This document shows, piece after piece, positions 19,626-34,606 of a stretch of DNA of 64,000 nucleotides. The DNA is taken from NCBI GenBank assembly GCA_017303895.1, contig JAFLBF010000001.1:62001-126000 (forward strand), read 5' to 3'. This DNA is from Bacteroidota bacterium. GTDB lineage: Bacteria; Bacteroidota; Bacteroidia; 2-12-FULL-35-15. Position 1 is the stretch's first letter; the number at the start of each line of letters is the position of its first letter. A program made the position numbers and the translations under genes. The notes below the pieces were generated by a model. It ran no database searches and was not told where the DNA came from. It saw nothing but the letters and a program-made list of their open reading frames with translations.

Positions 19626-22252
19626 TTACTTAACAATGGTTACGTGCCCGATGATCTTTTTCTTTTTACCCTTAACATCTTTATAATTAAGGCGATAGAC
19701 ATATACATCCTGCTGACAAATATCGCCAACGTTATTTACAGCACCATTCCAGCCCTCTTTTTGATCAGTAGAAGTAAATATCCTCATTCCCCAACGGTCA
19801 AATATCATTAACTCATAATTTTTAGGATCAATGCCGTGCGCATAGACATAAAAAATATCATTCAAATTATCCCCATTAGGAGTAAACGAGTTTGGAATGT
19901 AGATCGTGATCACATCATTGATCACTACATATTGCGTAATTGAATCAATACAGCCACTTGGGCTATTAATTGCGTACAAGGTAACCGGATAAGTTCCGAT
20001 ATCAGGATAGGTATGAGATGGATCCTCTAAGGCGGATCCTGAACCATCACCAAAATTCCAGATCCATGTATTCGTGAATGAAGATGTATTTGTAAAGTAA
20101 ATGGTTGGATTTACAATATCTGCATCTAAAGGTGTCATTGTAAAATTGGCATCCGGCTGAGAATTAACTGTGATCATACAAGCAATGGTTGAATCACTCG
20201 AACATCCTGCTCCGAAACTAACTGTAAGCGTTACATTTTGGCAGCCATCGGTCAAATAGGTATGCGAAGGATTAGAGCCTGTTCCGGCAGTGCCATCACC
20301 AAAATCCCATGTATAGGTAGCACCCGAATTACCGGTTGTATCGGCAGTAAAATTAACAGTTACCGGATTACAGCCTGACGTTACATCGGAAGTAAAATCA
20401 ACCACAGGTGGTGCCGATGTAGTAACTGTTGCAACAGCTGTCCCCGTACAACCATTTGTTGTTCCTGTTACTGTATAAGACGTTGATGTTCCCGGAACTG
20501 AAATACTAGCAGTTACTTGACCGGTTGACCACACATAAGAAGCCGCACCATTCGCATTCAATGTTGTTGGAACACCAACGCATGTTGTAGGCGAATTAAC
20601 TGTAACAACAGGCAACGGATTTATTGTAACCGTAGTGGTGGAAGTACTTGTACAAGCAGATGGAGTGGTAATAGATATTGTTACTGTATAAGTCCCGGAA
20701 GCAGCTACAGTTGCTGCAGGGATGCTTGGATTTTGAAGCGCGGAAACAAATCCATTCGGCCCTACCCACGAATAAGTTGCTCCTGCTAAATTGGTTGCTG
20801 TTAAATTTAATGTGGCACCTTCACAATGCGGACCATCATTGCCTGCTGTTACAGGACATGGTACACAAGCTGCGGGAGCTGTATAGTTTTGAGTTAATGT
20901 ACATGCCGGATCAGCCGAAAAAACAGCAGTTACAACACAAGCCGATCCATCCGAAGTAAGACCATTCAAAGCATAAGCCATCGGACTAATAAATGGGGCA
21001 TTAAATACTTGTGGCGTTCCACCACAAGAACTGGAAACTGTTAATGTTCCTGTTGCAGGAGCATTGGTGAAACCAACTGAACCAGTTACAGAATAGTTGT
21101 TCGTAGCCGGATCACAAGCCGATGCATTAGCTGAAAGTGATGTGATCGAACAAGTATTCGGGCATGGAGCTGGAGCAGTATAATTTTGAGTTAAAGTACA
21201 AGCTGCATTGGCAGAAAAACTGGCAGTGATCGTACAAGCCGCACTATTAGCTGCCAATCCTGTAAAGCTATATGCAGCAGGACTTGTGAAGGGAGCATTT
21301 AAAACTACAGGTGTTCCACCGCAAGAATTAGAAATGGTCAACGTTCCCGTAGCAGGAGCATTTACAAATGTTACATTGCCGCTAACATCATATTGTTGAG
21401 TGGCACTATTGCAAGCTGTAGGCGTAGCTGAAATTGCAGATATGGCGCAGTTCACCACACATGATGGAGGTGCTGTAAATGCCTGAGTGAGTGTACAAGT
21501 AGGATCGGCTGAAAATGTAGCTGTAACCGAACAACCGGCTCCGTTGGCTGGCAAACCACCCAAAGAATAACTAACCGTAGTAGGATTAAAAGGAGCATTG
21601 AATGTTTGAGTCGCCCCGCTACAAGTATTTGTAACCGTGAGTGTCCCCGAAGTCGGAGGTGTTGTATAAGTAATATTACCTGTTACTGTATAAGTGTTTG
21701 TTGCCGGATCACAAGCACCTGGAGTAGCTGTTAAGCCGGTCATATTACAAAGGATATTGCAATTAGTTGTCCCTGTTCCACCTGTCTGAGAAAACTCAAT
21801 CGTCCCCGGATCATCGGCAAAATTGGTCAGAAGTAGCATATACCATTCTCCTGCTACAGCATTGGGAATAACACATGTTTCTTGAGCTGCGGTAGAATAA
21901 CTGCAATCCACGGCACTGGTAGCTTGCAAATTGGCCGCACAAGCAGCAGCTGTACTTGTAAATGGGCCCCAACAAGCAAAATCAACATCAATACCATTAC
22001 CCCCCCCAGATCGGTTTGTTCTATGTTGATAGTAATTGGTCCTGTAGTTGCAATTTGCAAATAATACCAGGCTGGATTGGGTGTTGTAAACAAGCAGTCA
22101 AAAGTCCCTGCATCAGCAATCCCTGTATTATTTGGAAAATTATAGGTCGTCCCGGTACAAAACGGATCGGCTGTAGGACATGAAATCCCTTGAGAATAAG
22201 CAAGGTTCCCTGCTAAAAATAAGATCAAACTTGTAAGGAGTATTTTTTTCAT
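19626..22252 (-). CDS. T9SS type B secreted protein, frameshifted at a G8 tract (about 875 aa if restored)
   Basis: Two frames together encode one protein. Residues 1-82 (signal peptide ending NLAYSQ, then CPTADPFCTGTTYNFPNN) are read from 22252. The rest is read in another frame from about 22007 down to 19626. Adding one G to the run of eight (22000-22007) joins them as TDLGGGNGIDVDFACWGPF, matching the NVDIDFALWGPF of the 3702-aa protein. Three Cys-rich modules follow (CNMTGLTATPGAC type), then Ig-like domains, two PKD domains (WDFGDGT, WNFGDGS) and a type B sorting domain (IPNSFTPNGDNLND, IFDRWGMRIF, DVYVYR). As written, translation from 22252 ends near 21854 after 132 aa. The cause may be a homopolymer sequencing error, a phase-variable OFF state or a true pseudogene. 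Confidence 0.82.
22000..22007 (-). repeat. Homopolymer G8 tract at the frameshift point
   Basis: Eight C on the plus strand (G8 on the coding strand) exactly where the two frames of the adhesin gene must join. Nine (or six) G would restore the full reading frame. Confidence 0.85.
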
Positions 22253-23424: not shown

Positions 23425-23856
23425 ATGATCACAACTATTCCATTTAAGATCTTGAATATTGATGGTGAAGGGTTTCACTTAATGATAAAATTAAAGATCA
23501 ACAATCGCTCATCCTCCATGATCATTGATACCGGTGCATCAAAAACAGTTTTTGACACAACACGCATCAAGAAATTTGTTGATCAAAAAACATTTGATAC
23601 ACATGACCGCCTTTCAAGCGGATTGGGTACAAATACAATGAAAAGTCAATTGGCAACCATCAAAAAGATTAAGATCGGTGATCTAGAAATGAAGGAATAT
23701 AAAACCATTTTACTCGACCTCTCGCACGTCAATCAATCCTACGAACAGATCGGATTAAAGCCGGTAGATGGTGTTTTAGGAAGTGATATTTTATTGAAAT
23801 ACAATGCGGTGATCGATTATGAAAAGAAGGTGCTAAAACTTAAGTTCAAAAAATAA
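23425..23856 (+). CDS. Retropepsin-like (clan AA) aspartic protease
   Basis: A 143-aa protein. The start chosen is the ATG at 23425; an upstream TTG frame extension lies inside the mdh terminator and is unlikely. The aspartic protease motif IIDTGASKTVFD (near residues 33-44) and the second hydrophobic glycine motif GVLGSDIL (near 121) are the hallmarks of single-domain retropepsin-like enzymes, which work as dimers with one Asp from each chain. No signal peptide is visible. Related small proteins are common in Bacteroidota, but their substrates are unknown. It converges on the DCC-family gene, with an 11-bp overlap of the 3' ends. Confidence 0.85.
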   Translation: MITTIPFKILNIDGEGFHLMIKLKINNRSSSMIIDTGASKTVFDTTRIKKFVDQKTFDTHDRLSSGLGTNTMKSQLATIKKIKIGDLEMKEYKTILLDLSHVNQSYEQIGLKPVDGVLGSDILLKYNAVIDYEKKVLKLKFKK

Positions 23857-24265
23857 ATCGCTCTTTTACATCTGGTGTAGGGATCATACAACTTTCTTTC
23901 TTTCCAAACCATTTATACCTGTTACGCGCTATCAGATCATACACGGCATCTCTCACAAACCGGGGAATTATTATAAATCCGGATAACAGCGGATATGCTC
24001 CATTTAATTTTTTTGTAATTCGCAGGATCGCGGAAGATTTAACAGCAAATTGATCATTCTCTATCAGAATGATGCTATCTATTTTTTGCACATCGATAGC
24101 CAACTTTTCACATATTGCTTTCCCAACATCTGATTGGATAGGGGCAAATTTGAAGTGTGCTTTTTTATCGTGACGGATTATGAAGTTAACGGAGGAGTTG
24201 CAAAAATTGCAAACACCATCAAATAAAACGATTGCAGTATGATCATGAGTCTTTGGATCCATCAA
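23846..24265 (-). CDS. DCC-family thiol-disulfide oxidoreductase-like protein (DUF393)
   Basis: A 139-aa protein with the family motif DGVCNFCN near residue 15, where a CxxC redox pair follows an Asp on the first thioredoxin-like strand. Downstream positions also fit the family: FKFAPIQSD, a SIILIEN strand and the C-terminal RNRYKWFG. It probably works in the cytoplasm; the true reaction of the family is not settled. Its ATG overlaps the stop of the beta-propeller lipoprotein gene upstream by 4 bp, so it is the last gene of that transcript. It may or may not belong functionally to the metal island. Confidence 0.88.
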   Translation of the reverse strand: MMDPKTHDHTAIVLFDGVCNFCNSSVNFIIRHDKKAHFKFAPIQSDVGKAICEKLAIDVQKIDSIILIENDQFAVKSSAILRITKKLNGAYPLLSGFIIIPRFVRDAVYDLIARNRYKWFGKKESCMIPTPDVKERFIF

Positions 24266-25719
24266 TTCCTCACACCAATTGCATATGGGTCTACCGATAC
24301 TTCCACTTTTTTGATCGAACCATTTTCATTACTCAACATGTCCAATGTATTCAATTTGATAAAAGATACATTTCCATTTCTACCACCGCATTCACCTAAA
24401 TGATGTGGTGCCGGTCCATCGCTCGAAGCATTTCTATTAGCAACAAATACCAGACCTTTGTCTTCATCAATTCCAATTCCATGTGGCTGATGTCCTGTGT
24501 ATATATATTTTACAAATGAATTGGTACTATAATCGATCACCGCAACAGAACCTCGCTTCCCTGGAAAATTTACTGTATCTTCAGGACATGTTACAAATAA
24601 ATAATTATACGCACTAGACACCACCATCTCCGAAGGCAAACCTCCAACCGGAATTGTAGCCAATAATTGATCATTAGCTGTATTAAATATTCTCAATTCC
24701 TTTGTTCCCTGACAAGTCACAAAATATTTATTGCCATCAGGAGAAAAAATAACTTCATGCGGCAATAATGATACAGGTGGAGGCGTAGAAAATAAATTCA
24801 CTATTTGATCTATACTAAAATCATTTACAAAAATCTTCAGGATCTCACTTGAGTTTTGCAGAGTAACATACAAAGTATCTGCTGAAGAATTCAAAGTAGA
24901 ACCATGCGGATTGTTATATCCAAGATTATGCGTTACCGATAATGTTTGCAAATTCACTTCAGCAATATCCCCATTAAAACTCCAATCGATCACAAATGCT
25001 TTCTGACCATCCGGAGTGATCGTCATTGTATTCCAATTCCTCAAACCAAGCATGGCTTCGCCCACATACGAATCATCTGAAGTGCGAAATTTTTGAATGG
25101 AATTTCCTCCGGTACTTATCACATACCAATATTGTCCATCAGGCGAAACTTTTATATTGTGCGGTGATTCAATTCCAGCACTATTCCCTACATTAACATA
25201 ACGCATAGGCAACAAGGTTTCCTGATCAAAAACAGTAACTACATCACATCCTTGATTCGTCACATAAAACTTTTTACGATTGGGTTTGTCTGAAAATTTC
25301 ACAAAACCCTCCCTATTGGGAGCCCCTGCATCGATCCAATTTTTCAACAATAGAACTTCTTCTCTGCTTAAACTCGGACGATTATACGGCATCGTAGGAT
25401 TCAATGTAACTCCCAAATCGGAAAATGTATTTACATAATACATCATGGTGCTATAATCACTCCGGTAAGGAATTACCGACAAAGCATTCCTACCTCCTTC
25501 GAATAACTTATCCCAACTCTCCAACGACAGATCACCTGCTGCACCTTTACTCAAATTATTATGACAACCACTTACCGCACATTTCGTAAACATGATCTTC
25601 CCGACCTCCTCCGGAAACTGATTATAATCGGGAGTCGCCTTTTCATTTGTACATGAACTTAATGTAATAAGCACAATCAATATAGAAAAAACAAATATGT
25701 ATGCAGGCGATATTTTCAT
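24262..25719 (-). CDS. Lipoprotein with haem-c motif and YVTN/cytochrome-D1-like beta-propeller
   Basis: 485 aa from the ATG at 25719, chosen because it gives an SPII signal peptide with lipobox LSSC (Cys23); a start 30 bp further upstream puts unneeded residues ahead of it. Residues 37-130 look like the cytochrome-c-like domain found ahead of such propellers. The haem motif has the spacing C47-x4-C52-H53 instead of the usual CxxCH, and PTMPYNRPSLSREEVLLL supplies a possible axial Met. Residues 140-480 form a seven-bladed-type propeller (SPHNIKVSPDGQYWYV, PHGIGIDEDKGLVFVAN). It would be periplasmic or outer-membrane anchored. It follows the MbnP/MbnH genes, suggesting electron transfer or substrate binding with them; that is inference. 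Confidence 0.8.
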   Translation of the reverse strand: MKISPAYIFVFSILIVLITLSSCTNEKATPDYNQFPEEVGKIMFTKCAVSGCHNNLSKGAAGDLSLESWDKLFEGGRNALSVIPYRSDYSTMMYYVNTFSDLGVTLNPTMPYNRPSLSREEVLLLKNWIDAGAPNREGFVKFSDKPNRKKFYVTNQGCDVVTVFDQETLLPMRYVNVGNSAGIESPHNIKVSPDGQYWYVISTGGNSIQKFRTSDDSYVGEAMLGLRNWNTMTITPDGQKAFVIDWSFNGDIAEVNLQTLSVTHNLGYNNPHGSTLNSSADTLYVTLQNSSEILKIFVNDFSIDQIVNLFSTPPPVSLLPHEVIFSPDGNKYFVTCQGTKELRIFNTANDQLLATIPVGGLPSEMVVSSAYNYLFVTCPEDTVNFPGKRGSVAVIDYSTNSFVKYIYTGHQPHGIGIDEDKGLVFVANRNASSDGPAPHHLGECGGRNGNVSFIKLNTLDMLSNENGSIKKVEVSVDPYAIGVRN

Positions 25720-25738
25720 ACTCGTAAAGTTAAAAAAT

Positions 25739-25772
25739 AAAACCCGCAAATAAAATTATTTGCGGGTTTTAA
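25739..25772 (-). terminator. Stem-loop between 25790 and 25719 genes (terminator or attenuator)
   Basis: AAAACCCGCAAATAA pairs with its complement around a 2-nt centre, followed on the minus strand by a T-rich stretch. It is a good intrinsic terminator, but only about 20 bp remain before the next start codon, so the downstream gene may rely on readthrough. Confidence 0.8.
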
Positions 25773-25789
25773 AAGTATTAGAAATTTTT

Positions 25790-26167
25790 CTATTCGGTTA
25801 CCGGAACATCAATATTCACATCTTCATTTGTTCTTAATCGGACTCCAACGCCACCTGTAACAGGGGCAACAACGGCATTATCGTAACCTACGCCATACAA
25901 ATAATAATCGCCTTTACGCAAGCCTTCAAATTTATAATTTCCGCTGGCATCAGCTGTTACTTGTGCATCATAAGCCGACACAGCTGCTCCCGGAAAATCA
26001 GTTGCACCATATTTTATGTACACAACACTGTTGGGGATAGCAGCACCATGATGTTCAACTACTCCCGAAATGGATGATTTTCCACCAGGTCCTTCTTTTT
26101 TACAGGACACTGCAGAGAAACTTATCACCGCTAAAAGTAAAATGTATATTGTATTTTTAATTTTCAT
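25790..26167 (-). CDS. Lipoprotein with carboxypeptidase-regulatory-like domain
   Basis: A 125-aa protein with an SPII signal (lipobox AVSC, Cys22), then a single beta-sandwich domain of the carboxypeptidase regulatory / SdrD-B type (about 32-120). This shows the usual order SGVVEHHGAAIPNSVVYIKY, DAQVTADASGNYKFEGLRKGDYYLYG. A His pair (EHHGAA) lies early in the domain. Such domains act as binding or structural modules; here it is a stand-alone periplasm-facing or surface lipoprotein. It lies 33 bp after the outer-membrane protein gene in the MbnP/MbnH transcript and is followed by a stem-loop. Confidence 0.82.
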   Translation of the reverse strand: MKIKNTIYILLLAVISFSAVSCKKEGPGGKSSISGVVEHHGAAIPNSVVYIKYGATDFPGAAVSAYDAQVTADASGNYKFEGLRKGDYYLYGVGYDNAVVAPVTGGVGVRLRTNEDVNIDVPVTE

Positions 26168-26200
26168 GATCTATTAATTTCTTATAAAGTTAACCAATAA

Positions 26201-27232
26201 TTACTCAGTTTGTTTTCTCCGGAGCAAATATTTTTTCTGATTAAAATTATAGGTCAGACCGACCATAAATTTAGCCGAGTGTTTTAAATTCTTGTCAAAC
26301 CCCTGCTCGTAGGCAGGCAAATGAAAGGATGTGTTCAGCGTCATATTCTTATAAAAAACATCCAACCCCACCCCTGCTGTTAAAACATTCATAGTTGTTC
26401 CATTCTGAAATGTTTCGTGAATGTAAACGCCTTTGGTATATTCATAAAATCCTTGAATAGATGGAAAAAACTTCAGATCCTTCTCCTGCCTGAATTTGTA
26501 AAAAACATTCAAATAGGTTGCAGTACTATTATCCACCCGTTCGTGATAATAATTTTCGCCATTATACTTAAACATGGTATTGAAGTTCAATCCGAATTTT
26601 TTTACCCCAAATACATAATTGAGGTAAGCCAGATAATCTACACTCCCTGTCCCCGGTTGAAGCATATAATCGATGCGATTATTGGAAGCATCCTTTTGAT
26701 AATAATCACCTACCGGCAACTTTAGTCCTGCTCCAAGGATCAAACGATGCTGATATTTTTCAGTCATAATTTTACTTACCACATGGTATGCTGCAAAAAA
26801 GGTCATATCACCTAGTCCTTGTATGGTCTGCTTTTGCTCATTTACACGATTTTGATTCATTACAAATGGTATAACTGCATTCAACTCAATACGCGGATGA
26901 ATAAAAAATTTCCCCCTCAACTCAGCTGAAGTAAACAATTCATAATCACGTGGACTCAATGCAGAATCCGAAATTACGGTATGTGAACCATGCTTTAGCT
27001 GTTTATCTGAGAAATCTTGACCTCTGTTAGGATGATAGGATCGATGGGTATTCGGGAACAACAAACTTCCTTGTCCGGCCCCATAGTATCCACTATAGCT
27101 TTTATATCGATATAAAACGGATATGCTACTTTGATTATCATAAGGTGTGATTCCCATAAAACACCCGCAAAAATCACAGGCAAAAATGCTGTATTGCACA
27201 AGAAACCCTAAAAGGGTTAATATATATTTCAT
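26201..27232 (-). CDS. Outer-membrane beta-barrel-type protein with N-terminal CxxCxC motif
   Basis: A 343-aa protein. After a signal peptide (residues 1-18) the mature N-terminus begins CDFCGCFMGITPYDN, giving Cys19, Cys22 and Cys24, a possible metal-binding cluster. The rest is rich in alternating amphipathic strands with aromatic ends (SVLYRYKSYSGYYGAG, LNYVFGVKKFGLNFNTMFKY, KFMVGLTYNFNQKKY), as in transporter-like outer-membrane proteins. Similar proteins beginning with a CxxCGC motif sit next to di-heme peroxidases and MbnP-like proteins in other Bacteroidota, as far as I recall. It is probably the outer-membrane channel or receptor of this operon. Neighbours lie 23-33 bp away on the same strand. 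Confidence 0.72.
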   Translation of the reverse strand: MKYILTLLGFLVQYSIFACDFCGCFMGITPYDNQSSISVLYRYKSYSGYYGAGQGSLLFPNTHRSYHPNRGQDFSDKQLKHGSHTVISDSALSPRDYELFTSAELRGKFFIHPRIELNAVIPFVMNQNRVNEQKQTIQGLGDMTFFAAYHVVSKIMTEKYQHRLILGAGLKLPVGDYYQKDASNNRIDYMLQPGTGSVDYLAYLNYVFGVKKFGLNFNTMFKYNGENYYHERVDNSTATYLNVFYKFRQEKDLKFFPSIQGFYEYTKGVYIHETFQNGTTMNVLTAGVGLDVFYKNMTLNTSFHLPAYEQGFDKNLKHSAKFMVGLTYNFNQKKYLLRRKQTE

Positions 27233-27255
27233 GAAGATCTGATTATATAAAATTG

Positions 27256-28302
27256 CTAAGGTGCGAATGGATCCGCAAACCTTCTGTCATTAATAAATGA
27301 ATAATCAGAGAGTGTTTTTAAGAAGGCAATAATATCCTGTTTTTCCTGAGTTGTCATTGGAATACCGCCTACAACTCCTGCACTTATAGTGCTTGAATTA
27401 ACAACACCTGAAGAATAGTGATCCAGCACTTGCTCTAAAGTAATAAATCGACCATCATGCATATACTGTCTGGTAAGGCCTACATTACGAAGAGATGGAA
27501 CTTTAAAAGTACCGGAATCGGCCGCTAATAAAGTTATCCGGGCACGACCCGCATCCGCAAATACAGAGTCCAGACCATTATTCATGTATTGAAAATTAGT
27601 AAACAATGGTGCTGTATGACAAGAATTACATTTCTGCTGAAATAAATTTAAGCCATTCAATTCGGATGTGGAAAGCGAAGTCTCCCCTCTCAGATAACGA
27701 TCATATTTAGAATTGGCAGAAACCAGCATACCCTGAAATTGAGCCATTGCTTTTAAGATCAAAGGTGTGGTGATCGTTTCTGTTCCAAAAGCCTCACGGA
27801 ACAATCGTCTGTAATCAGCATCGTTCTGCAGCTTAACAACCACATTATTAATATCCTCATCCATCTCAACCGGATTGTCGACTGGAGCTAACGGCTGAAC
27901 TTCCAGATGGTTTACTCCACCATCCCACATAAAACTTGGATGCCAATTTAAATTGTACAAACCCGGAGCATTACGGGTTCCTAATAACCCATCTATTCCA
28001 TGACTTACAGCATGATCTAAATGTGAAAAAGCGGCAAACTGCTGATGACAACTTCCGCACGAGATCGTATTATTTCGGGATAAACGGGTATCATAAAATA
28101 ATTTTCTACCTAAAATAAAACCTTCTGTTGTTAATGGATTGGTTGAGAAATCATACACCGGTTGTGGCCAACCTTGCGGAACCGAAAAACGAATATCGTT
28201 TACCGGTAATTCTTCTTTTATAACAGGATCTACTTCACAAGCATTCATAGCAACCATAATGATTGCTATGAATGTTATGAAATATTTCTTTTTTATTCTC
28301 AC
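27256..28302 (-). CDS. Di-heme cytochrome-c peroxidase / MauG family lipoprotein (MbnH-like)
   Basis: A 348-aa protein with an SPII signal (Cys22 after VAMNA). Two haem-c sites are visible: C82GSCH86 and C225NSCH229. The family motifs FILGRKLFYDTRLS, HPSFMWDGG, VPSLRNVGLTRQYMHDGRF and the C-terminal DIIAFLKTLSD are in place. MauG-like enzymes either remove peroxide or modify a partner protein. MbnH, next to MbnP in methanotrophs, converts a Trp of MbnP to kynurenine, which helps form a copper site. Here the gene lies 17 bp after an MbnP-family gene, so a protein-modifying role is likelier than peroxide removal. This is inference from the pairing. Location: periplasmic side, lipid-anchored. 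Confidence 0.87.
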   Translation of the reverse strand: MRIKKKYFITFIAIIMVAMNACEVDPVIKEELPVNDIRFSVPQGWPQPVYDFSTNPLTTEGFILGRKLFYDTRLSRNNTISCGSCHQQFAAFSHLDHAVSHGIDGLLGTRNAPGLYNLNWHPSFMWDGGVNHLEVQPLAPVDNPVEMDEDINNVVVKLQNDADYRRLFREAFGTETITTPLILKAMAQFQGMLVSANSKYDRYLRGETSLSTSELNGLNLFQQKCNSCHTAPLFTNFQYMNNGLDSVFADAGRARITLLAADSGTFKVPSLRNVGLTRQYMHDGRFITLEQVLDHYSSGVVNSSTISAGVVGGIPMTTQEKQDIIAFLKTLSDYSFINDRRFADPFAP

Positions 28303-28319
28303 TCTCCTAAATTACAAAA

Positions 28320-29105
28320 TTAGTTATGAATATGCTCTACTGAGAACATATCAGCATAGTTATCTGCAATTGTTTTTGCAGCAGCACCAGGCATGTGGAT
28401 CATGTTTGTTGTCGCAAAATTAGTTGTAGTTGGATTTTTGAACATCTCGCTTAGATCAACCGCAAAGTGAATCTCTGGAGTAATAGAAGAGCTTACAATA
28501 GCTGTTTCAGCATTAAATGCAGGAGACACAGTTTTTAAAGTATTGTTAGCCCCTGAAAAACCACCCACATGGAATGTTAATGCACCACCCATAGAAGGAG
28601 ATTGAGGAGAAGTACCTTCCATTTTAACCATGATATAACCACTGCTCCAGCTCCAGAACATACCATTTGCAGGATCTAAAGCTCCCGTTTGTGCTCCTGA
28701 TACATTGCGCGCGCTATCCACACCGATCATAAATTCAATACCATCATACGTGTCAAATGGAACGCTAGATAATGCTATTTCTAATGAAGAAAGATCACTT
28801 GCTTGTAATAAGTGGTAACTATTAGATTCCGTATATTTTACAACACCTGATTTCAACAATTTAATATTAGAAATATAATAGTTGAATTTTGTTACATTGA
28901 ATGTATCACCATTCGCATTGGTATAAAATTGAGAATTTAAGACCAAAGCATTGGTATCGACCATGTTTTCGAAATGCAAATTCAAACTACCTGTAGTCGC
29001 AGCAGGAGTTGTTGGAGCCGGTTCTTCATCCGGATCTTTTTTACAAGAAGTGAATACTAATGATGCTGTTAATGCTAATAACGAAAAATATTTAATTGTT
29101 TTCAT
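28320..29105 (-). CDS. MbnP family lipoprotein (putative copper-binding partner of the di-heme enzyme)
   Basis: A 261-aa protein with lipobox VFTSC (Cys21) and a Pro/Thr linker (about 28-38). The MbnP-type domain follows: LNLHFENMV, KFNYYISNIKLL, SYHLLQASD, FMIGVDSARNVSGAQTGALD, then NGMFWSWSSGYIMVKMEG with Trp151 and Trp153, and LTFHVGGFSG. In methanotroph MbnP a Trp becomes kynurenine through MbnH and the protein binds copper; Trp151 and Trp153 are the obvious candidates here. It is the first full-size gene of the haem/metal transcript, and a CRP/FNR-like palindrome lies 46-61 bp upstream of its start. The family is firm; copper binding is inferred. Confidence 0.87.
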   Translation of the reverse strand: MKTIKYFSLLALTASLVFTSCKKDPDEEPAPTTPAATTGSLNLHFENMVDTNALVLNSQFYTNANGDTFNVTKFNYYISNIKLLKSGVVKYTESNSYHLLQASDLSSLEIALSSVPFDTYDGIEFMIGVDSARNVSGAQTGALDPANGMFWSWSSGYIMVKMEGTSPQSPSMGGALTFHVGGFSGANNTLKTVSPAFNAETAIVSSSITPEIHFAVDLSEMFKNPTTTNFATTNMIHMPGAAAKTIADNYADMFSVEHIHN

Positions 29106-29150
29106 TTGTTTAAATTTTTAATAAAGTTAATAAAGATAAAAGCCAAAATC

Positions 29151-29166
29151 TGTGACAAAGGTCACT
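29151..29166. promoter_or_regulatory. CRP/FNR-family-like operator upstream of the MbnP gene
   Basis: TGTGA-CAAAGG-TCACT, nine of ten bases of the CRP half-sites, inside the perfect palindrome GTGACAAAGGTCAC (29152-29165). A possible -7 box TAACTTTA (29129-29122) would place the site centre near -42, as for class II activation. Binding is untested. Confidence 0.5.
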
Positions 29167-29260
29167 TTGACCATTTTTTTAGCAATTTTTTGATTGCGAA
29201 CAACTCTATGCAAGCATAGGCAAACAAAACAACTGCTAGCGTTAACAAAAGTTTTGTCAT
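29162..29260 (-). CDS. Candidate 32-aa single-pass membrane protein
   Basis: An ATG at 29260 opens a 32-codon frame ending at the TGA at 29162. It begins MTKLLLTLAVVLFAYACIEL, a clean hydrophobic helix with one Cys, and ends in a strongly basic tail (KKLLKKWSK). The shape, a short transmembrane segment with a positive cytoplasmic tail, is typical of real small membrane proteins. It lies between the Cys-rich 123-aa gene (44 bp upstream) and the MbnP gene (56 bp downstream) on the same strand, and its 3' end overlaps the palindromic operator. It could also be a chance frame in a 200-bp gap; conservation in relatives would decide. Confidence 0.45.
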   Translation of the reverse strand: MTKLLLTLAVVLFAYACIELFAIKKLLKKWSK

Positions 29261-29304
29261 TACAATAAAAATTAAATTAATACTTAAGAAAAGAGGAATG
29301 AACC

Positions 29305-29676
29305 CTAAACGGTTCGAGGAGGCTGAAATATCGAATCCAGATACCTTGAATAAGGTATAATTGAATAAGAGAAATAGTTTCTATTTTCTAAGAATGTAAT
29401 AAATGATGTTTGATCAACTAATACTTCTGAAAAATATTGGACTTCAAACTTTTCTTTTTGAGAAACCGGAACAGAGTTTTCCTTTTTATCCTGCTTTTTC
29501 AACTCTTTCGCCAAATGGCATTTACCATTACAAGTTGATTTTGGCTTTTCTTTATTCTCGCAAAGATTTTTGGAAATATATTCTTTATTTATCTCATAAT
29601 CGGCTAAAATAATAAGCTTTGAGGCCGACTGAAATAAAAAAACACTAGATAACAATATGGCAATTACTGATTTCAA
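29305..29676 (-). CDS. Small cysteine-motif protein of the metal island (123 aa)
   Basis: An uncharacterised protein starting at a TTG (29676); a stop lies six codons upstream in frame and no in-frame ATG exists. The N-terminus (VIAILLSSVFLFQSASKLIIL) is a signal or anchor helix. The core has C39-x9-C49-x3-C53-H54 (LCENKEKPKSTCNGKCHLAK), a likely metal- or haem-related motif, followed by a Lys/Gln-rich stretch. The tail ends in IFQPPRTV. Similar small proteins with C-NGKC-L and a Pro-rich end are, to my recollection, common beside metal genes in Bacteroidota. A perfect TAnnTTTG promoter element sits just upstream. It is probably the first gene of the MbnP/MbnH transcript. Function unknown. 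Confidence 0.72.
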   Translation of the reverse strand: MKSVIAILLSSVFLFQSASKLIILADYEINKEYISKNLCENKEKPKSTCNGKCHLAKELKKQDKKENSVPVSQKEKFEVQYFSEVLVDQTSFITFLENRNYFSYSIIPYSRYLDSIFQPPRTV

Positions 29677-29712: not shown

Positions 29713-29742
29713 TTTCGAAAAGCGTATTTATACATATATTTA
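29713..29742 (+). promoter_or_regulatory. Putative promoter of the HMA-domain gene
   Basis: TTTC (29713-29716), an 18-nt spacer, then TATATTTA (29735-29742), one mismatch in each element. The expected start site falls at the gene's ATG codons and at the palindrome 29751-29764, so binding there could block transcription. Confidence 0.35.
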
Positions 29743-30284
29743 TGTTAATTATGACTAAAGTCATCAAATACAATCTAACCATAACAATCATTCTGATAAG
29801 TTTATTCATATCAAAAGCCCAATTTATTTCTGCGGTCGTTGGAATTGATGGTCTTACCTGTTCTGCTTGCTCATTTTCTACCGAAAAATCAATACGAAAA
29901 TTAATATTTGTGGATAGTGTATACATGGAACTTGAGAAAAACATTGCCACCGTCTATTTCAAAAAAAACAGCTCCGTTTCCATTCATTCGCTTGCTCAAA
30001 AAGTAATAGATGCCGGATTCGCAGTAAGGAGCATTCATGCTATATACGATTTTCAAGATCTTAAAATTACTCCTGATCAATGCTGGGACTATGAGAACAA
30101 TATCTATCATTTCATAAAAATTGAGAAAGAGCAAACGCTATCGGGACCAACTACGATAAAATTCATTGGAGAAAAGTACATGCAAAAAGCTGAATACAAA
30201 AAATGGAAATTACTGTGTACAAATACATGTAATAATTTAACCACTTCACTCACAAAGAACGTTTATCAAATTACTCTTTTTTGA
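29742..30284 (+). CDS. Exported HMA-domain (heavy-metal-binding) protein
   Basis: A 180-aa protein. An N-terminal signal or anchor segment (ITIILISLFISKAQ) is followed by a heavy-metal-associated domain with GLTCSACSFSTEKSI (Cys40 and Cys43) and the expected beta-alpha-beta spacing (DSVYMELEKNIATVYFK, LAQKVIDAGFAVRSIHAIYDF). HMA domains hold Cu(I), Zn or Cd between two Cys; most are cytoplasmic chaperones or parts of P-type ATPases, so an exported one is unusual. The C-terminal 80 residues hold further Cys (DQCWDY, LLCTNTCNN) and match nothing I know. A second ATG at 29751 could be the start. The stop overlaps the next gene (TTGA), so they are coupled. It is divergent from the MbnP/MbnH operon. 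Confidence 0.75.
   Translation: MLIMTKVIKYNLTITIILISLFISKAQFISAVVGIDGLTCSACSFSTEKSIRKLIFVDSVYMELEKNIATVYFKKNSSVSIHSLAQKVIDAGFAVRSIHAIYDFQDLKITPDQCWDYENNIYHFIKIEKEQTLSGPTTIKFIGEKYMQKAEYKKWKLLCTNTCNNLTTSLTKNVYQITLF
29751..29764. promoter_or_regulatory. TGAC-N4-GTCA palindrome at the divergent promoter
   Basis: ATGAC TAAA GTCAT, perfect 5-bp arms with the same 4-nt A-rich spacer as GTGAC AAAG GTCAC at 29152-29165. It overlaps the start codons of the HMA gene and lies about 70 bp upstream of the expected start site of the opposite operon. Confidence 0.45.
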
Positions 30285-31225
30285 TCCGGTCTGTTTTAAA
30301 TATAATCCTCACTTTTTCCCTGGCTAATTCTATATATGCTCAGGAGCTATTCCCTCATGTTGACCCTGCAAGCAATATTCCAAAGGGTGTATTAGGAATT
30401 CGATTAGCGAATGAGGGATTCAATGAAGTAAATGAGTTCCGCTTTTCTCAAAGTTATCGTTTTATGTTTGGCATTACATCCAAATTAATGATCACCCCGG
30501 CTTTTAACTTTAGCAATCATCATGGACGGAAATTTCCTAGTGATTTTATTGCCAACGATGGAAACATTGGCATTCACACACACGGTGTCAGCAAAGGCAA
30601 TAAATACCCCTATCAATTGGATAACTTTAATGTGAATATTAGATACCGTTTCTTAAGTTTAGATAAAACAAAAGATCATTTTCGGATGACTGCCTACTTA
30701 GAAATGGCTGCCGGAAGAGAAGCGCACGATGAGGCAGAGCCAAATTTAATGGGCGACAATGGAGGAATTGGCGCAGGAATAACAGCAACAAAATTAAAAC
30801 AACGCTTTGCGATCTCTGCAACAGTGGGTGGTATTGTCCCACAAGATTATTATTATCAACGTAAAGACTCCTCCTTAACGGTTAAATATGGAAAAGCAAT
30901 TAACTACAGCTTATCCATGGGATTACTTTGTTTGCCTTTCAAATACAAAAGCTACAAACAAACAAACGTTAATGTCTATTGCGAATTTATTGGCAAAGCT
31001 TATGAAAAAGCAAGAGTGATCAGTAATTCCAGAGAAGTACTCATTGCCGATGTGCCAGGCCTGGAAGGCGGAATGTATGTTGAATTCCGGCCATCCATTC
31101 AATTTATTTTCAATTCTAACCTTCGAATTGATCTCTCTTATGGCCGACCACTCTATAAACGATCCTATACACATTTTTATCCATTGTATTTTTTTACGAT
31201 ACAACGTTATTTCTATTTCAAATAA
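30281..31225 (+). CDS. Outer-membrane beta-barrel-type protein paired with the HMA protein
   Basis: A 314-aa protein starting at a TTG that overlaps the preceding stop (TTGA), with a signal peptide ending SIYAQ near residue 21. The mature part is made of amphipathic strands (GVLGIRLANEGFNEV, SYRFMFGITSKLMITPAFNF, NVNIRYRFLSL, SIQFIFNSNLRIDLSYGRPL) and ends in YFYFK, as expected for a barrel. A His-containing loop is present (FSNHHGRKF, NIGIHTHGVSKG) and could touch metal. No named family is recognised. Coupled translation with an HMA-domain protein suggests metal export or sensing at the envelope, by inference. A bidirectional terminator follows directly. Confidence 0.7.
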   Translation: MIRSVLNIILTFSLANSIYAQELFPHVDPASNIPKGVLGIRLANEGFNEVNEFRFSQSYRFMFGITSKLMITPAFNFSNHHGRKFPSDFIANDGNIGIHTHGVSKGNKYPYQLDNFNVNIRYRFLSLDKTKDHFRMTAYLEMAAGREAHDEAEPNLMGDNGGIGAGITATKLKQRFAISATVGGIVPQDYYYQRKDSSLTVKYGKAINYSLSMGLLCLPFKYKSYKQTNVNVYCEFIGKAYEKARVISNSREVLIADVPGLEGGMYVEFRPSIQFIFNSNLRIDLSYGRPLYKRSYTHFYPLYFFTIQRYFYFK

Positions 31226-31260: not shown

Positions 31261-31836
31261 TTACTGAATCTTTGTGTGAAACGTCAGATCAATATCTGTT
31301 GTTCCTGGAGCAAATGTACCATCCTTAACACCTGGCTGATGCTTTAAAATAATTTGTGTGGAACCCATACTTGCTGCACCTGTTCTCCATTTGGTTTGCA
31401 AACCTAATGGCAATGGTGTAGGAGTATTGGTATCAAAATCAGTTATAGAAACGTTTGCATTTGCACCCGTTACAGTATAAAAGAACAAATGATCATTTGC
31501 TTCCTCTAATATTTCATTGGAAATCGAATCTGCTGGTGAAGCAGTTTCATTCAAAATGACAACCTGTGCATAATACGTTTTATTGGCTTGCAAATGAATA
31601 CTATCAAATTGCGTAAATGGATTTCCTCCATCTCCATCCGGATCACGAAAAGTAGCACTTGCCACATTGGCCGAATTGGCCGAATCCGTAAAATACAAAG
31701 TAAAAGTTGTAAGTACCTCTCCTTCGTTTGTAGGAGCAGGAGGCGTAGGAACAGTATCCTCATCTTTTTTACATCCTGTAAAAATTGATCCGGCAATGAT
31801 CATTGTCAGAATAAAATGTTTGATTTGATTTTTCAT
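31261..31836 (-). CDS. Lipoprotein associated with the TonB receptor (191 aa)
   Basis: SPII signal with lipobox IFTGC (Cys22), a Pro-rich linker, then a beta-rich domain: GEVLTTFTLYFTDS, SATFRDPDGDGGNPFTQFDSIHL, AQVVILNETASPADSISNEILEEANDHLFFY, STQIILKHQPGVKDG. The acidic EILEEANDHLFFY helix and the DPDGDGG loop are features I recall from lipoproteins placed next to TonB receptors in Bacteroidota, sometimes labelled type 1 periplasmic-binding-fold-like, with no proven function. The acidic and His residues could bind a metal. It is 20 bp downstream of the receptor gene, so they form one transcript. It may be the surface partner or lid of the receptor. Confidence 0.72.
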   Translation of the reverse strand: MKNQIKHFILTMIIAGSIFTGCKKDEDTVPTPPAPTNEGEVLTTFTLYFTDSANSANVASATFRDPDGDGGNPFTQFDSIHLQANKTYYAQVVILNETASPADSISNEILEEANDHLFFYTVTGANANVSITDFDTNTPTPLPLGLQTKWRTGAASMGSTQIILKHQPGVKDGTFAPGTTDIDLTFHTKIQ

Positions 31837-31855: not shown

Positions 31856-34180
31856 TTATTTTTTAATTGAATGGTTAATTGGTATTTTAATTCGAACCGA
31901 AATATTTCTACCTAATTCATCCGAATAATAACGGAAGCGGTTCATGTAATTTCTGTAAACAGTATTCAGTAAATTATTCCCGGAAATTGAAATTGCTAAA
32001 CGTTGTTTTTTAAATTGCAAGGTGGTTCCAAGCTCCGCATTGAGCAAGAAATAGGCAGCAGGCGGTACAGCATAATCCGCATTTACCGGTACGCGCCATT
32101 GTTTATTCTCATATACACCATTGATGGAAATAAATGATTCATTTAAAATCTTCCATGATTCAAAGTCATAAGAAAGTTTTGTAATGGAGCGATCGGCAGG
32201 CATCTGAATCAAATAATCCTTTGCAGTATTATTATAAGCACGTAGGATCGACAACTTCTCTGAAACAGTTAAATGAGGAATAAGCTCATAACTGATCTGC
32301 CCATCCACTCCCATCAAAGTAACATTGGCTTGTGTATATACAAATGTTGGAAATGCACCACTAATGGTAACTGTAGCAGGAAATTTTGGTTGCAGATAAA
32401 TAAAATCATTGATCACATTATAATAAGGACTGATCTCTATTTTTAATTTATCATTGTTATTATATTCTAAACTCGCTACAAAATTAACTGCCTTTTCCGG
32501 TTTCAAATATTCATCACCGATTTCATATGTAGCTGAACCATGATGAATACCTTTACTATGGAGCTCATTTACATTAGGAGCACGCCATGCCGTACCTGTA
32601 TTCAAACTAAATTGCAATTTTTTATTGATGGAATAAATTAACCCAAGCGTCCCGGACATATTTTGATAAATATATTCAGGAGAAGTGATCACATTATTGA
32701 CATACTTATACACCTGTAAATGACGATAATCATAACGGATACCTGCTTCTAACTGCAATTTATTTTTTGTATAGCGCTCGATCCAGTATGCTCCACCTGT
32801 GTAATTGCTGAAATTTGGAATAAAATAACGTCCTTCGTAGGTGTTACCTTGTTTCATTCCACTTATTCCAACTGTCCCTGTAAAACCATTGAATGAATTA
32901 TGTTCCCAAAGCACCTCCAGCGTATGACTGGTTATTTCAAACTGCAACTCCGGTTTGTTAAGATCTGCCAATGCGTTATTACGAGGCTTTTCTTTATCAA
33001 ACTCATTTCTCAAATTATACTGGCGGGCATATACCAAGCTTAGCTTACCAACATTTCCTGTTAACACAAAAGCCTTTGCTTTGAAAAGCTCATGTTCAAC
33101 ATGCTGATAAGGACGACCGATAGAATAAGTGAAATCAGCTTTTTCTAAAGGTTCCGGTCGATCAATAGCAGCCATCAGATCGGTAACATTTCCAATATGT
33201 GCTCCGGAGAATATTCCGATCGTTGTGTTAAACTGACTGTAAAACAATTCTACTCCGTACTTCGACTTATTCCATCCGATACCGCCTGAAAAATTATACT
33301 CTTCAACACCGGTGTTCTTTAGAATATAATTAGGGGTATTCAAATTGCCGGCTTTCTTTAATGTCCCTTGTAATCGCCAGCTCAAAGCAGAGATGCGTTT
33401 GAAATTCTGATTGATAATACCTGAAACAATACCGGATCGTCCGTTGCTCATTCCCACTAAATTTAATTCTGCATCAATACCGGCAGAATCTCTAAGCTTA
33501 TCCGGCTCCACCAAAATAACACCTGCAATGGCATCCGAACCATAACGCACTCCATTCGCCCCCTTTATGACCGTTAATTTTGTCGCAACAAAAGGATCGA
33601 TCTCGGGTGCATGTTCACTCCCCCACTGCTGTCCTTCTTGCCGGATCCCATTATTTAAAATGAGAATGCGACTACTATGTAAACCGTGAATAACAGGTTT
33701 TGAAATACTCGACCCTGTTTGAATCGTATTTACTCCTGTCACATTTCTAAGCGTTTGACCGAATGTTTCTCCCCTCAGCTTGTCTAGTTCTTTCTGCTTA
33801 ATTTCGACTGAGTTAACGATCAGCTTCTGTGGTTCACGATCAGTGACTATATTAATTAAGCCAAGTTCATGCAAGTGGTGCTCTGGATAAAAATTCTGGG
33901 TCGTATTTCCATTAACTTCTATATGCATCACCAAGCTGTCGCATCCAATGTGATGACAAGTAATGGTATAATTTCCCGGACATAAATTCAGGATCTTATA
34001 ATTTCCCAAAGAGTCGGTTAACGCACCTCTTTTGAGCTCTTTGATAAACACCTCCGCAAATTCCAATGGCTTCCGGTCATGGTGATCGATGACCTTTCCG
34101 CTTAAGGTGTGATCACATTGAGCAGATGCCGGGAGAATGAATAGGATGAATACAAATAATAGATAAACGCTTTTCTTCAT
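31856..34180 (-). CDS. TonB-dependent receptor with carboxypeptidase-like N-terminal domain
   Basis: 774 aa from the ATG at 34180, chosen because MKKSVYLLFVF begins a normal signal peptide ending LPASAQ; a start 48 bp further upstream is possible but needless. A carboxypeptidase-regulatory-like domain (about 24-105) comes first. The plug domain follows with LRGETFGQTLRNVTGVNTI, SKPVIHGLHSSRILILNNG, then GQQWGSEHAPEIDPF and KLTVIKGANGVRYGSDAIAG. A 22-strand barrel runs to the C-terminus. The plug line RQEGQQWGSEHAPEID and His-rich stretches (CHHIGC, YPEHHLHEL) resemble receptors for zinc or other metals, such as the ZnuD type. With a His-rich small protein upstream and a lipoprotein downstream, metal uptake is the best guess; the ion is not determined. 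Confidence 0.9.
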   Translation of the reverse strand: MKKSVYLLFVFILFILPASAQCDHTLSGKVIDHHDRKPLEFAEVFIKELKRGALTDSLGNYKILNLCPGNYTITCHHIGCDSLVMHIEVNGNTTQNFYPEHHLHELGLINIVTDREPQKLIVNSVEIKQKELDKLRGETFGQTLRNVTGVNTIQTGSSISKPVIHGLHSSRILILNNGIRQEGQQWGSEHAPEIDPFVATKLTVIKGANGVRYGSDAIAGVILVEPDKLRDSAGIDAELNLVGMSNGRSGIVSGIINQNFKRISALSWRLQGTLKKAGNLNTPNYILKNTGVEEYNFSGGIGWNKSKYGVELFYSQFNTTIGIFSGAHIGNVTDLMAAIDRPEPLEKADFTYSIGRPYQHVEHELFKAKAFVLTGNVGKLSLVYARQYNLRNEFDKEKPRNNALADLNKPELQFEITSHTLEVLWEHNSFNGFTGTVGISGMKQGNTYEGRYFIPNFSNYTGGAYWIERYTKNKLQLEAGIRYDYRHLQVYKYVNNVITSPEYIYQNMSGTLGLIYSINKKLQFSLNTGTAWRAPNVNELHSKGIHHGSATYEIGDEYLKPEKAVNFVASLEYNNNDKLKIEISPYYNVINDFIYLQPKFPATVTISGAFPTFVYTQANVTLMGVDGQISYELIPHLTVSEKLSILRAYNNTAKDYLIQMPADRSITKLSYDFESWKILNESFISINGVYENKQWRVPVNADYAVPPAAYFLLNAELGTTLQFKKQRLAISISGNNLLNTVYRNYMNRFRYYSDELGRNISVRIKIPINHSIKK

Positions 34181-34291
34181 TTGATCATTTAATGAGCCAA
34201 CTGCGAAAGACAAATAGATTGTCTCCATAACAGTAGCTATGAAACAAGTAAACCATAGGATCTTAGATCATATAGTTATTACAATCATACA

Positions 34292-34606
34292 TTAAACAAC
34301 CGGAGGCGCTCTGGATGGGATATCCTGATAGGACGAAGGTGAATGAACACTGCTTGTAAAAAGATCGAAAGAAATGATCTTCCCAAAAGATCTAAACTGA
34401 TAATACGCTATTTCTAATTCATTGGAATCAGGGACAGAATAGTCGCAAAGTGAACAAGAGTGCTCCTGCTCATGAAAATGCTTATCGGAAGATGTACAAT
34501 GAAAATCGTCCATATGCTCCAATGTGTGCATCTCCTTTTCCACCAATGGAAAAAGAAATAAGAACAATAAAGCGATGGAACAATATCTATTTAGAATTTC
34601 TTTCAT
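34292..34606 (-). CDS. Small His/Cys-rich protein upstream of the TonB receptor (104 aa)
   Basis: An uncharacterised protein. An N-terminal hydrophobic segment (SIALLFLFLFPLVEK) is followed by a short His/Cys-rich stretch. This holds His27, His31, His36, Cys37, His43, His45, His49, Cys51 and Cys54 (HTLEHMDDFHC, HFHEQEHSCSLC). The end is DIPSRAPPVV. The pattern suggests binding of zinc or copper at the periplasmic side. Small proteins with HxC-x-C clusters and a Pro-rich tail beside metal receptors are familiar in Bacteroidota, but none has a role I know. It lies 111 bp upstream of the receptor gene on the same strand and 34 bp from the divergent Nudix gene. Confidence 0.68.
   Translation of the reverse strand: MKEILNRYCSIALLFLFLFPLVEKEMHTLEHMDDFHCTSSDKHFHEQEHSCSLCDYSVPDSNELEIAYYQFRSFGKIISFDLFTSSVHSPSSYQDIPSRAPPVV

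Follow-up and report, generated by a model that had tools for sequence, protein, structure and literature searches.

A divergent MbnP/MbnH-like gene pair within a modular envelope locus of a Bacteroidota bacterium

Introduction

The locus studied here lies in a 64-kb window (the whole stretch of DNA analysed) of the near-complete, 3.6 Mb genome of a Bacteroidota bacterium. It raises the question of whether a gene pair resembling the copper-binding protein MbnP and the di-haem enzyme MbnH builds a copper site in this organism, and whether the surrounding genes form one machine with it. All gene coordinates given below are positions in the window. From 23846 to 29676 there are seven genes, all on the minus strand, in the order, upstream first, SMEM, MbnP, MbnH, OMP, REG, PROP and DCC (Table 1), with MbnH beginning 17 bases past MbnP. 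An initial annotation had placed a co-directional MbnP/MbnH-type gene set at these positions, which proved correct; its coordinates covered SMEM, which its text left out. In M. trichosporium OB3b, MbnH reportedly turns the first Trp of a WxW motif of MbnP into kynurenine, and Cu(I) binding is said to depend on this conversion.

The answer that we consider moderately probable is that the window encodes a Bacteroidota MbnP/MbnH-like pair which would make a Cu(I) site and is plugged into a modular set of envelope parts for heavy metals, as opposed to a single machine dedicated to copper. Gene content, motifs, predicted fold, conservation and modularity were observed; Trp oxidation, metal identity and transport direction are inferred.

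The MbnP-MbnH pair

The window MbnP matched PF20243 with 187.6 bits (cut-off 27) and displays the motif M149-x-W151-x-W153 (GMFWSW), His179 (H179) and a C-terminal HIHN tail. Of 102 MbnPs taken from the phylum and from relatives, 100 conserve W151, 91 conserve W153, and M149 and H179 are kept in 94 each; judged from this alignment, the conservation is such that the WxW motif is not due to chance. The AlphaFold2 (AF2) model of the protein had a pLDDT of 92, and in a Foldseek search with it the 7l6g chains (M. trichosporium MbnP) were the only PDB matches at E ≤ 0.001. A sequence-profile search of the PDB with Bacteroidota MbnPs gave nothing relevant, and the D. radiodurans protein served as a bridge, since the GMAWNW of 7l6g aligns with its GMYWAW, and the latter with the GMFWSW of the window.

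The window MbnH contains the haem motifs CGSCH and CNSCH, and Trp126 is also present. The PDB sequence closest to it was 6e1c, "Di-heme enzyme" (E 1.5e-52). On alignment with the classical CcP 1iqc, its Tyr296 stands at the axial Met of CcP, i.e., at the axial-ligand position of MauG. The protein thus has the two CxxCH haems and the distal axial Tyr, not Met, by which the MauG/MbnH branch is recognized. Among its homologues both haem motifs were found in 166/166 and Tyr296 in 159/166. MbnH is adjacent to 158 of 186 distinct MbnPs, and it is the next gene downstream in 125 of the 152 MbnPs with sufficient flank. Membership of the broad CCP/MauG family, with homologues located apart from MbnP in the same genome, would also suit a plain di-haem peroxidase that guards the envelope, with MbnP as its electron donor or docking lipoprotein and the Trp unmodified. 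This seems very improbable in view of the replacement of the CcP axial Met by Tyr and of the near invariance of WxW in the MbnP partner. The Trp pair of MbnP, the two-haem MbnH, the CxxCxC motif of OMP and the DCC protein, all of them named in the initial annotation, were confirmed by Pfam matches and motifs. None of the outcomes named initially as refuting appeared for the core, which has conserved Trp, haem sites and neighbourhood.

Lipobox cysteines are present in MbnP, MbnH, REG and PROP, and we infer that these lipoproteins are exposed at the surface. The lipobox Cys of MbnP often continues as CKKD, which resembles the Bacteroidota lipoprotein export signal (PMC5080379); MbnP is probably anchored to the outer membrane. 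An HxH C-terminal tail occurred in 49/77 OMP-linked MbnPs versus 7/75 others. As a signature of OMP it is suggestive at most, with 3.7 versus 0.1 independent pairs (p 0.125).

Points that weigh against a classical copper site

Several observations weigh against the making of a Cu(I) site by this pair. The window MbnP scored 48.6 bits with TIGR04052 (MbnP family copper-binding protein, an equivalog model), below the cut-off of 140, and MbnH scored 233.7 bits with TIGR04039 (MbnH family di-heme enzyme) in a full-length match, below the cut-off of 362.85. The classical four-Cys motif is missing from the window MbnP, whose sole Cys is that of the lipobox, and so is the classical "NH" His (a His after N134 was found in 12/183 MbnPs). 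As these two features are absent, the copper site may differ from the classical one. In addition, H179 is replaced by Ala in L016, L027 and L031 (fetched loci are numbered with the prefix L) despite the presence of MbnH. Also on this side, 19 MbnPs without an adjacent MbnH retain WxW; the genomes checked among them carry MauG-like genes elsewhere. The association of MbnH adjacency with WxW gave a Fisher p of 3.8e-4 on raw counts, but it is not independent on the MbnP tree, where it disappears. Finally, the companion genes co-occur with Cd/Zn-type pumps, as described below.

In L034 and L035 the change of both Trp to Met (MYMGM) coincides with the loss of MbnH from the operon. This fits the Trp pair being kept for MbnH, though it is a single event. 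From the scores below both NCBIfam cut-offs and the absence of the four-Cys motif and the "NH" His, it is reasonable to conclude, on sequence grounds, that the window pair is a divergent Bacteroidota branch of the known one. The presence of TIGR04039 per genome was rejected as a discriminator, because other CcP/MauG genes are matched by the model as well.

The four-Cys motif of the classical MbnP family was seen in plasmid-borne homologues. In four plasmid loci the gene after MbnP is labelled "methanobactin export MATE transporter MbnM" (L186:5847-6998, L187:5750-6919, L188:5752-7023 and L190:5786-6946). All four genes exceed the TIGR04039 cut-off, with 406-559 bits versus 362.85, and by their sequences the label is an annotation error.

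Companion genes

SMEM (LCENKEKPKSTCNGKCHLAKEL) had no match in Pfam or NCBIfam. It shows the motif LCxNKxxPxxxCNGKCHLxKxL and an F-x-P-P-like end, and it was detected in 71 fetched loci. OMP belongs to no Pfam or NCBIfam family; it has CDFCGC directly after the signal peptide, with C19 and C22 conserved in 70/71 and C24 in 57/71, and its AF2 model (pLDDT 83) led Foldseek to 4rl8 and FapF barrels. REG has a CarboxypepD_reg-like score under the Pfam cut-off, and conserves H39 in 27/28, H40 in 25/28 and the lipobox Cys in 28/28. PROP, described initially as a haem-motif propeller, is indeed a YVTN-type beta-propeller lipoprotein, with a haem-like motif that is CX4CH (CAVSGCH) and not CxxCH.

In the 152 MbnPs mentioned above, the next gene upstream was SMEM in 56, and OMP followed MbnH in 44. 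Within 2.5 kb of MbnP, and always on its strand, there were 69/70 OMP, 70/76 SMEM and 30/32 REG genes. These counts come from fetched loci, which were picked around MbnP; therefore, an unbiased check was run with the OMP profile over 59 related genomes. It gave 11 strong matches, nine of them adjoining an MbnP, and about a dozen weak matches, beside divergent MbnPs too. On the MbnP tree, OMP and SMEM were gained or lost jointly (8.0 versus 1.0 pairs, median p 0.039). So, OMP and SMEM are genuine partners of MbnP across families. The comparison of neighbourhoods that had been proposed as a check thus found SMEM, OMP and, in some groups, REG conserved around MbnP across Bacteroidota.

Modularity and metal-pump islands

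The relatives of the genus, matched by name, are uncultured metagenome-assembled genomes. Loci of the genus share the slot SM2>TBDR>SMEM>[cassette]>OMP>REG>PROP>DCC, flanked by ASP and MDH, where TBDR is a TonB-dependent receptor; it is a composite, no one locus having all its genes. The cassette varies while the slot persists. The window, L007 and L009 have MbnP-MbnH in this place, and L191 and L192 have no cassette. In L034 and L035, a single lineage, the cassette is the MYMGM MbnP, with H179Q and MbnH gone from the operon. In L196-L198, L200 and L205 it is an MWF-type MbnP without MbnH, usually with a small CX4CH lipoprotein behind it; this subfamily has Lys/Arg in place of H179. SM2>TBDR pairs were found in L005, L007, L191, L192 and L208-L210, and both genes are part of the extended operon in relatives. 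REG>PROP adjacency was seen across the genus, with DCC after PROP in relatives, and REG-PROP was also found without MbnP or OMP.

The six- to eight-gene set initially taken as one system does not hold as such, because three units, SM2-TBDR, SMEM-MbnP-MbnH-OMP and REG-PROP-DCC, combine independently in relatives. The last one is a separate unit that holds its place when MbnP and MbnH are lost or replaced. An alternative would be that MbnP, MbnH, OMP and SMEM alone belong together, REG-PROP-DCC being chance neighbours through the local synteny of one genus. The persistence of REG-PROP(-DCC) beside ASP and MDH without MbnP (L201, L202, L207, L210), and the fact that just 3 of 11 DCC genes lie within 2.5 kb of MbnP, speak for it. 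It is nevertheless quite improbable, since in other families (L105, L119, L121, L123, L124, L132, L143) REG stands behind MbnH or OMP, and REG and PROP also stand behind SMEM-OMP in two pump islands.

These islands (L217 and L218) are two more SMEM-OMP-REG...PROP clusters of the window genome. Upstream of them are RND pumps with their CzcB-type adaptors, as well as Cd/Zn-type P-ATPases (TIGR01512); MntR/DtxR-like regulators, a cupredoxin and, in L217, an HMA protein are close by. Neither MbnP nor MbnH of the window type was found in the two clusters. This placement beside Czc/Cd/Zn pumps makes the companions look like general heavy-metal envelope parts. Tentatively, SMEM-OMP-REG-PROP could be a modular system for heavy metals in the Bacteroidota envelope, as yet undescribed, with an interchangeable metal-capture lipoprotein. 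The options for the latter would be MbnP plus MbnH with kynurenine, the MbnH-less MYMGM MbnP, the MWF-type MbnP plus the small CX4CH lipoprotein or, next to Czc pumps and a Cd/Zn-type ATPase, no such lipoprotein at all.

Identity of the metal and proposed mechanism

Among the locus genes, only the MbnP-MbnH pair points to Cu(I), and the companions do not imply copper. The initial proposal of binding of copper (or another metal) is partly supported: a Cu(I) role is most likely for the pair, by analogy, whereas the companions also occur with Czc-type RND pumps and Cd/Zn-type P-ATPases. Links to copper were found in D. radiodurans (order MbnP-MbnH-hypothetical-CopC-CopD), in Paracoccus, where PCu(A)C/SCO neighbour MbnP, in the fusion of an HMBD domain to an OMP in L034, and in the SCO1 family, present in 22/68 OMP loci, counts that are not independent because they are mostly from Pedobacter. 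SCO1 aside, counts of Pfam families among the mixed neighbours were too scattered.

A different interpretation is that the locus is an efflux or sequestration set for a divalent metal (Zn/Cd/Co/Ni), in which MbnP and MbnH form no copper site but serve the metal in question or the redox stress linked with it. It would account for the two clusters beside CzcB-type adaptors, RND pumps and Cd-type P-ATPases, for the second MbnP copy of the genome being within an ECF sigma / anti-sigma / Metal_resist-like cluster, and for the lost "NH" His and Cys motif. We regard it as unlikely, because both pump-linked clusters lack the window-type pair, most MbnPs retain WxW, Met and His on the fold of a copper protein, and CopC/CopD, SCO and PCu(A)C adjoin MbnPs elsewhere.

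Returning to a Cu(I) site within a modular kit, the following mechanism can be proposed by analogy with OB3b and CorA. MbnH would oxidize W151 of the MxWxW of MbnP, most likely to kynurenine, which together with M149 and H179 would create the Cu(I) site. MbnP may then hold or relay copper; SMEM and OMP would take part, the latter a barrel that has the soft-metal motif CDxCGC as its mature N-terminus. A TonB receptor often shares the operon in the window genus, and REG (the HH lipoprotein), PROP and DCC are a second, separable unit.

Features of the locus and further loci

Table 1. Features of the locus and its surroundings, with positions in the window
Feature	Position	Strand	Remarks
SMEM: small protein, one N-terminal hydrophobic segment	29305..29676	-	conserved upstream partner
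MbnP-like lipoprotein	28320..29105	-	PF20243
MbnH-like di-haem MauG-superfamily lipoprotein	27256..28302	-	PF03150
OMP: outer-membrane beta-barrel, COG4313/FapF-like	26201..27232	-	predicted fold and CDxCGC
REG: small transthyretin-like lipoprotein, near-invariant HH	25790..26167	-	CarboxypepD_reg-like
PROP: CX4CH domain and YVTN beta-propeller lipoprotein	24262..25749	-	pairs with REG
DCC: DCC1-like thiol-disulfide oxidoreductase, CNFC	23846..24265	-	PF04134, 115 bits
TonB-dependent receptor (TBDR)	31856..34228	-	directly upstream of MbnP in L005, L007; of SMEM-OMP in L191
SM2: small His/Cys protein (SCSLCDY; CxxC)	34292..34606	-	precedes TBDR in relatives
HMA-domain protein, divergent; soft-metal motif TCSACS	29742..30284	+	PF00403, 28.2 bits
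OUT2: outer-membrane-like protein after HMA	30281..31225	+	HMA-OUT2 pair also in L196, L200, L205, L217

The RND/ATPase island L217 encodes a homologue of the HMA protein. An orphan lipoprotein (31261-31836), with no homologue among the fetched loci, lies between the divergent HMA pair and the TonB receptor. Its identification as a second MbnP was rejected: the profile had drifted on iteration, probably via the shared lipoprotein signal region, and without iteration it matched the window only. Two overlapping minus-strand open reading frames at 19626-22252 (132 and 767 amino acids) look like one frameshift-split gene for a secreted protein.

Concerning other MbnP loci, the same genome has a second MbnP-MbnH pair (L024, C1:494595-513152), preceded by genes for an ECF sigma factor, a small anti-sigma-like protein and a Metal_resist-like protein and followed by a YHYH protein (PF14240), a context shared by many relatives. 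L085, L115, L173 and L181 each contain, in a single cluster, tandem MbnP copies of differing motif classes. L180 (CP034120.1, titled Glaciecola amylolytica) contains an SMEM-MbnP-MbnH locus with an MbnP 43% identical to that of the window, from either a mislabelled record or transfer.

Significance and comparison with known systems

The locus represents a genuine branch of a known pair, both conserved and divergent, in a notable modular context, and its surroundings are a little-described metal-handling kit. The novelty lies in the modularity, as the MbnP-MbnH pair is already known outside methanobactin operons: that it occurs well outside the methanobactin producers is on record since 2013 (PMC3621798) and is also built into the NCBIfam names. 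A working kynurenine copper site in this locus would extend the range of protein-derived metal ligands formed by MauG-type enzymes to a large phylum, in a version without two of the classical features. Natural variants for asking why kynurenine is used are offered by the exchangeable cassette, among them the lineage in which loss of the operon MbnH goes with the Trp-to-Met change. SMEM, OMP, REG and PROP, mostly without a Pfam name, are now linked with metal pumps, which opens them to tests as metal proteins.

The window pair has in common with that of M. trichosporium OB3b (7l6g, 6e1c; TIGR04052, TIGR04039) the adjacency of both genes, the MbnP fold, the G-M-x-W-x-W motif and a MauG-type partner that has two haems and an axial Tyr. 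It differs in that both proteins are lipoproteins with SMEM and the CDxCGC barrel as partners, in falling under both NCBIfam cut-offs without the four-Cys motif and the "NH" His, and in lacking methanobactin genes, as initially noted: MbnB (TIGR04159, methanobactin synthesis) had no match anywhere in the genome, and no separate search for MbnC was made.

In gammaproteobacterial methanotrophs, CorA/CorB and MopE/SACCP provide a surface copper protein with a Trp-derived kynurenine and an adjoining MauG/CcP-family gene (PMC3912023). The concept of capturing copper at the cell surface is also shared with CorA and MopE, and they are a parallel case to MbnP-MbnH. CorA uses two His (H64, H114) plus Kyn62 and has a calcium site, and its fold was not among the Foldseek matches listed for the window MbnP. 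MauG, of tryptophan tryptophylquinone biosynthesis, is likewise a di-haem enzyme that acts on a Trp of its partner and shares the Tyr ligand position, but there are no methylamine dehydrogenase genes beside the window MbnH, which scored 176.7 with the NCBIfam MauG model (cut-off 443.85). As to OMP, its barrel fold is common to the COG4313 channel (4rl8) and FapF (5o65) at 12-14% identity, from which it differs in its Cys-rich mature N-terminus and its location in metal loci.

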